A DNA stretch of 43,717 nt, taken from NCBI GenBank assembly GCA_040755095.1, contig JBFMBH010000018.1, positions 1 to 43,717 on the forward strand, given 5' to 3'. The notes beneath the pieces were generated by a model, which did no database searches, was not told the origin of the DNA, and worked only from the letters and a program-made list of their open reading frames with translations. The position numbers were made by a program, and so were the translations under genes. This DNA comes from Thermodesulfobacteriota bacterium (GTDB taxonomy: Bacteria; Desulfobacterota; Desulfobulbia; Desulfobulbales; JBFMBH01). Positions 24,182 through 35,665 of this stretch are shown here, in pieces. Every line of letters starts with the position of its first letter. The first letter of the stretch is position 1.

Positions 24182-24296
24182 ACGCCCTGAAATCAGGGGG
24201 TGGCCGCGCGGAAGCCGGGCAGCTTGGCTGTTGCCCCTGCTGGCTGATATGGGCTGGATGTGGACTGCCGCCAGCCTCGATCCAAGGAGAAGGCTT

Positions 24297-24635
24297 ATGG
24301 AGAACCAGGAGGCATTGGTTAGGCTGGAGCAGTTTGTGGATAGGCTCCTGGCTGCCTGCCGCGAGCTCAAGGAGGAGCGGGCTGCCCTCGTCCGGCGGCT
24401 GGAAGACAAAGAGCGCCTGATCGCCGAGCAGGGGGAGGCGCTGGCCGCATTGCGGGATGAGCGTAATGTGGTGCACAGTCGGGTCAGCGGCCTGTTGCGC
24501 CGAATGGAAGACTGGGAGCACAGCGAGCTGGGTGACGAGATGGCCGGCGAGGCGGAGGAGGTGGCGGCGGTGGCAGTGCCGCGGCCGAGCTCGACCGAGC
24601 CGTCGCGGTTGTTTTCTTTGGCCGAGGAGCGGTGA
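24297..24635 (+). CDS. ZapB-like coiled-coil protein
   Basis: ATG at 24297 follows AAGGAGAAGG, giving 112 residues. Residues 5-80 are a continuous charged heptad coiled coil (ALVRLEQFVDRLLAACRELKEERAALVRRLEDKERLIAEQGEALAALRDE), followed by an acidic low-complexity tail. zapA begins 81 bases downstream. ZapB is a coiled-coil partner of ZapA at the division ring, and a short coiled-coil gene before zapA is the usual arrangement in this group. The call rests on coiled coil plus context, because sequence conservation in this family is low. Confidence 0.65.
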   Translation: MENQEALVRLEQFVDRLLAACRELKEERAALVRRLEDKERLIAEQGEALAALRDERNVVHSRVSGLLRRMEDWEHSELGDEMAGEAEEVAAVAVPRPSSTEPSRLFSLAEER

Positions 24636-24716: not shown

Positions 24717-25001
24717 TTGGAGCGACTGGTCAAGTTTGTGGTTCTCGGGCAGGAGTTTCCTCTTTACACCAGTGCGCCGGAAGAGGACGTCCAGGAGATC
24801 CTCCAGCTCGTGCGAAGCCAGTTCGAGGCCTTCACCCAGGGGCGAGCCGCCGGCCTGCCAGCCAACAAGGTGGCCGTCCTGGCCAGTCTGAACATGGCTG
24901 ATCAGTACATCCGCCTGCGGCGGGATTTCGAGCAGTATCAGGAACGGGTCAACCGGTGGGCAGCCCAGGTGGCCGCCAAGGTGGAAGAGGGTCTGTCCTG
25001 A
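24717..25001 (+). CDS. zapA: Cell division protein ZapA
   Basis: This 94-residue protein reads from TTG 24717, with GAGG a few bases upstream. The N-terminal half is the ZapA beta-rich head (LVKFVVLGQEFPLYTSAPEEDVQEILQLV). The C-terminal half is the dimerising helix, with the family motif KVAVLASLNMADQYIRLRRDFEQYQERV. ZapA binds and bundles FtsZ at the division septum. In many bacteria the 6S RNA gene follows zapA; here 834 noncoding bases follow before rny. Confidence 0.88.
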   Translation: MERLVKFVVLGQEFPLYTSAPEEDVQEILQLVRSQFEAFTQGRAAGLPANKVAVLASLNMADQYIRLRRDFEQYQERVNRWAAQVAAKVEEGLS

Positions 25002-25068
25002 CAGGGGTTCCCCTGCTGTGTTTGTGATCGGAGCGATCATTTTGAGCCAACATGACTATGAAGGGGGT

Positions 25069-25220
25069 CTTTCCTGGGTGCCAATGGCTTGCCGAGTCGA
25101 TCGGCAGGCCTGCGGGACTCATAGGATCCCCACCTAACTCCGGTTAGGTTCAATAGTACGCTACGACACGGCATTGGCGGGGGATTTTGCATTACGGACG
25201 GCACCCCACTGGGGGCGTCC
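25069..25220 (+). ncRNA. Structured RNA candidate A downstream of zapA
   Basis: Several exact helices are visible. GCCAATG (25080-25086) pairs with CATTGGC (25172-25178) to close the domain. Inside is a 9-bp hairpin at 25087-25109 (one G-T pair) and a 6-bp hairpin at 25133-25148 with a UCCG (UNCG-type) loop. The segment after that hairpin (TACGCTACGACACGGCAT) resembles the 3' end of enterobacterial 6S RNA. A strong hairpin follows at 25196-25220 (GGACG/CGTCC with CCCC/GGGG). A TATGAA at 25057-25062 could be a -10 box for a start near 25069, with no clear -35. The core is about 120 bases, short for 6S RNA, so it may be another small RNA. Confidence 0.45.
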
Positions 25221-25235
25221 TTCACGATACACCCA

Positions 25236-25446
25236 GAATTCCTTTGGAAGCTGCCGGCGGCGCGGGACCCCCGGCATGTGGTGACAGTGCCCGGCGGGTG
25301 CAGCCGGGGCGGGAGTTGACAGGGAGTACCGGAAGACCGTGCCCGGGTGCGAGCTGGTGGCGCCTCAGGGCCTTGGACTAAGGACGTTGGACAAGCTAAC
25401 CTGGGCCGCGGCACGCTGCGGCATGGGATCCCGAACAGGTCGGGTG
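25236..25446 (+). ncRNA. Structured RNA candidate B, 6S-like rod
   Basis: A rod can be drawn by hand. A closing helix of 25252-25262 with 25414-25423 has one bulged G. A distal helix GTGCCCGG (25287-25294) pairs with CCGGGTGC (25343-25350, two G-T pairs). Between them is an open central region whose 3' strand holds a CCTT-GGACT-AAGG hairpin (25371-25383). That is the layout of 6S RNA: closing stem, central bubble with a small hairpin on the 3' side, and apical stem. At about 205 bases its length fits, and zapA-ssrS is a common gene order. Strand and ends are inferred; candidate A is the rival for the 6S assignment. Confidence 0.4.
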
Positions 25447-25835
25447 GACATAGACGCTCGTAGGAAACGGATTCCGATGCGCACGGAGAACAGCTTCGAC
25501 AACATGTCGGTCGGTCCCGCACCAGCGACCTTTCATCGGCCGGTGGCCGGAGCGGGGCTCGCCGGTGAGCTGGGGCGGCTGCCGCCCGACGAGGCGTTGA
25601 TCCAGGATCGGTAGTCGTCCACCCAGCGCGGCCGCAGCCCTTATCTTCCACCCTCGTCGCCTCCCCCCTCCGTGGCGGACCGGTTTGCACCGGCTCCGTG
25701 ACGCGCCTGCCCACCCTCGCGGTCACCCTGCTTTCACGTGCGGCCCCGGCAGTGGCCTTTGTTGCCGCAAGCCCGGATTCCGGCCCGGCCGGTCCAGTGT
25801 TTGGCCGCACCCCTTCGTCCCAGGAGGAAACCTCC
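25447..25835 (+). other. Noncoding interval upstream of rny
   Basis: About 390 bases with no convincing gene. Short open frames here (for example one ending at 25614) lack ribosome sites and look like chance. The first part has dyads such as CGGATTCCG and CGGTCGGTC-type repeats, and the part around 25640-25680 is pyrimidine-rich. I see no promoter with both boxes. It could be the rny leader or the end of a longer structured transcript. Confidence 0.4.
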
Positions 25836-27401
25836 GTGCAGATATCGGTCGGCACCGTGCTCTTGGTCATTCTGGGGATCGCCGTCGGTATGGCCGTCGG
25901 CGCGTTCCTGTGGAAGCGCCTGGTGGATAATCGCCACCGCAATCTGGAGGAGCAGGGCCGCAAGCTCATTGAGGATGCCCTGGCCGAGGCGGAGCGCCTC
26001 AAGAGGGAGGCAGGCCTGGCCGCCAAGGACGAGGCCCTGGGTATCAAGCTGGAGGCGGAGCGGGAGATCAAGGCCCGCAAGGCCGAGGTGCAGGAGGAGG
26101 AGCGGCGGCTGTCCCAGCGGCTGGAGCAGATCGAGCGCAAGATCGATCTGCTGGACCAGCGGGAGATGGAGCTCCTCAAGCGGGAGCAGGGCTTCGGCCG
26201 CCTGGAGGCGGAGGTGGAGGAGCGCAAGAAGCGCCTGGACGCCCAGATCGAGGAGCAGCGCTTCGAGCTGGAGCGGCTGGCTGGCATCTCCCAGGAGGAC
26301 GCCAAGAGGCTTCTGACCGAAAGCATCGAGAGCGAGGCGCGCATGGACGCCGCCAAGGCCCTGGTGCGCATCGAGAACGAGACCCGGATCCAGGCGGATC
26401 GCAAGGCCAAGGAGCTCATCGGCCTGGCCGTGAGCCGCTATGCCGGGGACTATGTCGCCGAGAAGACGGTTTCGGTGGTGCCCCTGCCCAACGAGGAGAT
26501 GAAGGGCCGGATCATCGGGCGGGAGGGCCGCAATATCCGCACCCTGGAGGCGGCCACCGGCATCGACCTCATCATCGACGATACCCCGGAGGCGGTGATC
26601 CTTTCCGGCTTCAATCCGGTGCGGCGGGAGGTGGCCCGTCTGGCTTTGGAGCGGCTCATTGCCGATGGCCGCATCCACCCAGCCCGCATCGAGGAGATTG
26701 TGGAGAAGGTCTCCCAGGAGCTGGAGGTCTCCATCCGCGAGGCCGGAGAGCAGGCCACCTTCGATGTCGGCGCCCATGGCCTGCACGTGGAGCTGATCAA
26801 GCTTTTGGGCCGCCTCAAGTACCGGACCAGCTATGGCCAGAACGTGCTCCAGCATTCCTTGGAGGTGGCCTTCCTGGCCGGCATCATGGCCGCCGAGCTG
26901 GGCCTCAATGTCAAACAGGCCAAGCGGGCCGGGCTGCTGCACGACATCGGCAAGGCGGTAGACCACGAGGTGGAGGGGTCTCATGCGGCCATTGGCGCGG
27001 ATCTGGCCCGGAAGTACGGTGAATCCCCCAAGGTGGTCAACGCCATCGCCGCCCACCACGAGGAGGTGCCGCCGGAGGGCGTGGTGGACGTGCTGGTCCA
27101 GGCGGCGGACGCCCTGTCCGGCGCTCGGCCCGGGGCGCGCAAGGAGATGCTGGAGACCTATGTCAAGCGCCTCCAGGACCTGGAGCGGGTGGCCAATTCC
27201 TTCAAGGGGGTCAGCAAGTCTTTCGCCATCCAGGCCGGCCGGGAGCTGCGGATCATGGTCAACAGCGAGAAGATCTCCGACGCCGATGCGGTGCTGCTGT
27301 CCCGGGACATCGCCCGCAAGGTCGAAAACGAGCTGACCTACCCTGGCCAAATCCGGGTCACCGTGATCCGGGAGACCCGGGCCGTGGACATCGCCAAGTA
27401 G
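25836..27401 (+). CDS. rny: Ribonuclease Y
   Basis: The GTG at 25836 after AGGAGG (25822-25827) gives 521 residues, the normal RNase Y length; the in-frame extension upstream is not needed. An N-terminal membrane anchor ([21 protein letters not shown]) is followed by a long coiled coil (about 30-190), a KH domain ([21 protein letters not shown]), and an HD domain with [18 protein letters not shown] and [12 protein letters not shown] as the metal-binding His-Asp pair. RNase Y is a membrane-bound endoribonuclease that starts mRNA decay. tyrS begins 33 bases after the stop and is probably co-transcribed. Confidence 0.95.
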
Positions 27402-35578: not shown

Positions 35579-35665
35579 GCCGAAGTGGCGGAATTGGTAG
35601 ACGCGCTAGGTTCAGGGTCTAGTGGGGGTCTCCCCGTAGGAGTTCAAGTCTCCTCTTCGGCACCA
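35579..35665 (+). tRNA. tRNA-Leu (anticodon CAG)
   Basis: A complete class II tRNA: acceptor stem GCCGAAG/CTTCGGC (35579-35585 with 35655-35661), D-arm with GAATTGGTAGAC, anticodon stem CTAGG/TCTAG with loop TTCAGGG (anticodon CAG), a long variable arm, T-loop GTTCAAG, and an encoded ACCA end. It reads CUG, the dominant leucine codon in this GC-rich window. Confidence 0.95.

Follow-up and report, generated by a model that had tools for sequence, protein, structure and literature searches.

Between zapA and rny, the window (the whole 43,717-nt stretch of DNA analysed here) carries a 6S RNA gene and, behind it, a 648-base spacer. We propose, with fair confidence, that this spacer is mostly vacated space and that a short hairpin over the Shine-Dalgarno sequence of rny is the only feature in it tied to the control of this gene (Table 1). 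The 6S RNA is expected here. A masked rny start, if confirmed, would represent a simple translational control of a main RNA-decay enzyme in sulphate-reducing relatives. In addition to RNase Y, the same genome encodes two members of the RNase E/G family (G000:C3:12610-13416 and G000:C61:21753-22562), and the level of RNase Y may therefore matter for the sharing of work among these enzymes. Among the papers searched, none joins 6S RNA, zapA and RNase Y, or deals with masking of the rny start in these bacteria.

Table 1. Features of the zapA–rny interval and the two genes that flank it
Feature	Position	Strand	Evidence and remarks
zapA	24717..25001	+	Pfam ZapA PF05164, E 7e-13; upstream neighbour of 6S
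6S RNA (ssrS)	25007..25187	+	Rfam RF00013, fold z -5.86, covariation
Spacer / rny leader, undefined function	25188..25822	+	No Rfam match, coding signal, folding excess or own-genome repeat
GC-rich hairpin	25196..25220	+	8 bases past 6S; -13.9 kcal/mol; T tract absent
Shine-Dalgarno hairpin GGAGG-AAA-CCTCC	25823..25835	+	Directly 5' of rny start codon; -5.7 kcal/mol alone
rny, RNase Y, GTG start, 521 aa	25836..27401	+	PF12072 (RNase_Y_N) 7.5e-48, HD 1.5e-20, KH_1 8e-7

Boundaries of the interval

The intergenic region extends over 834 bases from the zapA stop codon (25001) to the GTG start of rny (25836), which is preceded by AGGAGG. A zapB-like gene (PF06005) is found at 24237-24632. The first-pass annotation had described the interval as noncoding and as the longest internal gap of the window, and both statements hold. 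The flanking genes are identified by their Pfam matches, a hexamer coding model trained on 240 kb from the same genome detects no coding signal in any of its frames, and a rough gene call likewise makes it the window's longest intergenic gap. Gaps of at least 600 bases are not rare genome-wide, as the same rough gene-calling method yields about 12 among 118 in 240 kb. The second-longest gap of the window harbours its sole tRNA gene, tRNA-Leu (CAG) at 35579-35665.

6S RNA downstream of zapA

By every feature testable here, the segment directly after zapA is a 6S RNA, an established kind of RNA in an ordinary place. The match spans the full RF00013 model (1-187 of 187) and scores 67.9 bits against a gathering cut-off of 46.4 (E 1.9e-11), bearing out the earlier guess that one structured RNA behind zapA would be ssrS. 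The gene starts 5 bases past the zapA stop codon, the same placement as in relatives, and none of 200 shuffles folds as well as the native sequence. Furthermore, an alignment of 24 genomes (the window and 23 relatives) displays compensatory changes in 27 of 52 consensus pairs. The window's genome was grouped with Desulfobulbales by its closest RNase Y relatives; Rfam detects 6S in 89 of the 116 genomes of this order, and all relatives searched come from outside the window's own family.

The first of the two folds drawn previously, at 25080-25178, lies inside this real structured RNA but was wrongly delineated, the true fold being 25007-25187. Its 7-bp closing helix (25080-86/25172-78) can be drawn; it competes, however, with the outer stem of the real 6S, and forcing it gives -64.1 instead of -87.7 kcal/mol, a penalty of 23.6 kcal/mol. 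Two such 7-bp closing helices were found, compared to about 0.9 (0.88) expected in shuffles of the same sequence. The internal hairpin reported as UNCG does exist, but it carries a GUCGA loop on a 10-bp stem and is not a UNCG tetraloop.

By analogy with other bacteria, the 6S RNA would sequester sigma-70 RNA polymerase. It may be transcribed as part of a zapAB-ssrS transcript or from a promoter within zapA, and its 3' end would form by termination or processing just downstream. Across 53 relatives, the first 50 nt past 6S contain the ends of 31 terminator-like hairpins, whereas 3.0 are expected from shuffles, suggesting that the gap also contains the end of the ssrS unit in those genomes. The GC-rich hairpin at 25196-25220 occupies the position of the ssrS terminator in relatives, and it is no stronger than chance, with 109 of 200 shuffles doing as well.

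A predicted Shine-Dalgarno hairpin at the start of rny

The GGAGG at 25823-25827 can pair across an AAA loop with the CCTCC at 25831-25835, which abuts the GTG start, and its pairing probability in a 150-base context is 0.96-1.0. The CCUCC beside the GUG start would thereby mask the GGAGG ribosome-binding site, and the predicted hairpin may limit RNase Y translation. A masked site would hold this translation at a low level that responds to ribosome supply, and this in turn could feed into autoregulation of RNase Y's own mRNA. An RNA-based control of rny, as envisaged by the first-pass annotation, is thus possible through this hairpin, which it did not mention, and not through the rod that it placed farther upstream (z 0.03).

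The hairpin is a post hoc observation, noticed once the leaders had been inspected. Moreover, this GC-rich genome contains 88 instances of the bare pattern GGAG-N3-8-CTCC-RTG, which is therefore meaningless in one genome alone; only its recurrence at rny supports it. Pairings comparable to that of the window do recur in many relatives. Upstream sequences of rny were gathered at about 110 loci across the order. CTCC is located directly 5' of the start codon in 22 of 49 distinct GTG-start rny leaders, but in none of the other genes taken from these loci as controls (0 of 62 with GTG and 0 of 105 with ATG starts). More broadly, a pyrimidine tetramer precedes the start in 43 of 51 rny leaders (distinct leaders were tallied in a slightly different way for this total), but in only 4 of 66 other GTG-start and 9 of 113 ATG-start genes. 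In both counts, the starts of the control genes were assigned with a simple Shine-Dalgarno criterion, and some may be incorrect. When GTG-start leaders are clustered by RNase Y identity, CTCC is found in 13 of 34 clusters at 90% and in 6 of 16 at 80%. Variant pairings include GGGA/TCCC, GAGG/CTTC and GGGG/CTCC, and the loop sequences and the remainder of the leaders differ widely. In L008, the relative whose RNase Y is most similar (76% identity), rny begins with ATG and no hairpin adjoins the start codon.

We tentatively suggest that in many Desulfobulbales the anti-Shine-Dalgarno sequence before the rny GUG could be a translational switch, which would have been kept over several families while the remaining leader drifted, and which might set the enzyme level by autoregulation or growth-dependent control. 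It is also possible, if somewhat doubtful, that the conserved feature is not a hairpin but a pyrimidine tract beside the start codon, relevant, for example, to ribosomal protein S1 or to start-codon context. Indeed, the 43 leaders with four pyrimidines include seven carrying CCCC, which pair only partly with their Shine-Dalgarno sequences, so the tract itself could be what is conserved. By contrast, permuting the tetramers among leaders lowers the pairing, with p 0.0002 for all leaders and p 0.0014 for the pyrimidine-only set, although these values ignore common ancestry and are too small because the genomes are related. In addition, leaders with GGAG as the Shine-Dalgarno sequence predominantly carry CTCC, its exact complement.

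Several other patterns were observed at rny starts. In the more distant Desulfobacterota L033, L040 and L041, masked starts with ATG are found (GGGG-AGC-CCCC-T-ATG, GGGG-ACT-CCCC-ATG and GGG-AATT-CCC-ATG, respectively). In six loci (L094, L104, L180, L150, L092 and L105), the rny GTG is preceded by TTTT behind AAGG or GGAG, which recalls FourU thermometers. Long-range pairing between CTCCGTG and the leader was seen in a single leader among 42, that of this window (at -354), whereas 0.40 would be expected; it was therefore ascribed to chance.

The spacer between 6S and rny

The order zapA-6S-gap-rny is found in nearly all Desulfobulbales loci examined, and no reading frame is common to their 6S-rny gaps. 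Three more distantly related genomes (L067, L075 and L082) have fthC, the gene for 5-formyltetrahydrofolate cyclo-ligase, between 6S and rny, implying that the gap is probably gene space left vacant, the slot of fthC in other Desulfobacterota. In Geobacter-type genomes fthC lies directly 5' of rny, and the window's genome has its fthC on another contig. The loss of fthC leaves the continued length of the gap unexplained. The spacer may be mostly vacated fthC space with a putative rny promoter somewhere inside. A coding gene or an fthC remnant in the spacer was rejected, as neither a coding signal nor an fthC match was found in the gap, and so was a repeat element, the segment being present once in its genome. 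A scan of the gaps for sigma-70 promoters was uninformative, since candidates were obtained in 23 of 53 genomes compared to 20.3 in shuffles.

Alternatively, the spacer could be a long regulatory rny leader under selection, for instance an RNase Y target, as in Bacillus subtilis, where RNase Y controls its own mRNA by cutting it in the 5' UTR and the first part of the coding region (PMC10303841). We regard this as unlikely, even though all Desulfobulbales genomes in which 6S was found upstream of rny keep 344-1033 nt between the two and a conserved block lies 100-200 nt past 6S in some families. Conservation of the sequence does not extend from one family to another, and the conserved block is unstructured and absent from the window. 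A search of 57 other genomes of the order recovered no recognisable copy of the spacer except one 42-base match (E 9e-4). Pairwise alignment to the L008 spacer scored above shuffles (z 6.3, 0 of 40) under lenient gap costs, because of which it is taken only as a hint of distant homology.

The conserved block is about 90 nt long, with the consensus GATTGAnTGCAGC...GGGAAG...TTTATAT, and is found between 6S and rny at 19 loci in one part of the order (L083, L091, L101, L106, L084 and others; e.g. L091:1761-1853). Tried as a structured element (model R1), it proved to be conserved in sequence but to have no consensus structure, and it has no match in the window. Two further family-specific conserved blocks are located 70-225 nt past 6S, one in L013, L016, L017, L020 and L022 and the other in L003, L005, L007 and L010; in both, a short hairpin precedes TTTAYTATAT or TTTATATATA.

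That the spacer encodes a second, lineage-specific structured small RNA at about 25252-25423 is very improbable: this GC-rich segment folds into a rod at -80.9 kcal/mol, but shuffles fold equally well (z 0.03, and z -0.35 for the longer piece 25190-25500), it has no Rfam match, and no recognisable copy is present in the relatives searched or at a second site of its own genome. The structured rod claimed previously thus has neither folding excess nor Rfam match, coding signal or detectable conservation, and with it falls the claim of a second structured RNA in the interval. Consistently, no 120-nt window in 25103-25872 folds below z -0.83. The Rfam scan proposed for 25002-25835 recovers 6S alone, with no further family in 25190-25835 beyond chance even at E up to 10. 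Likewise, the proposed comparison with relatives yields covariation for 6S, but for the spacer nothing beyond the single 42-base match and the hint from the L008 alignment.

Comparison with known systems

FourU RNA thermometers belong to a class of hairpins in which the Shine-Dalgarno sequence is hidden within a short stem. The predicted rny hairpin would mask the ribosome-binding site with a similarly short stem, and some relatives set UUUU against AAGG; however, the stem in the window is GC-rich. Like the autoregulation of B. subtilis rny mRNA, our reading places a proposed control close to where ribosomes bind the RNase Y mRNA. There, cleavage by RNase Y and RNase J1 has been shown experimentally (PMC10303841), whereas here a Shine-Dalgarno hairpin is predicted.

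The window's 6S RNA resembles SsrS (RF00013) in sequence, in its length of 181 nt, in its long rod with an internal bulge and in its location directly after zapA. It differs in that a T-rich terminator is absent in this genome and that a long spacer and then rny follow, rather than fthC/ygfA. The zapB-zapA-ssrS-(FAU1/ygfA) array, which includes fthC, is known from beta- and gamma-proteobacteria (PMC7641849). The window displays zapB, zapA and ssrS in the same order, but its fthC is found elsewhere and the next gene is rny.
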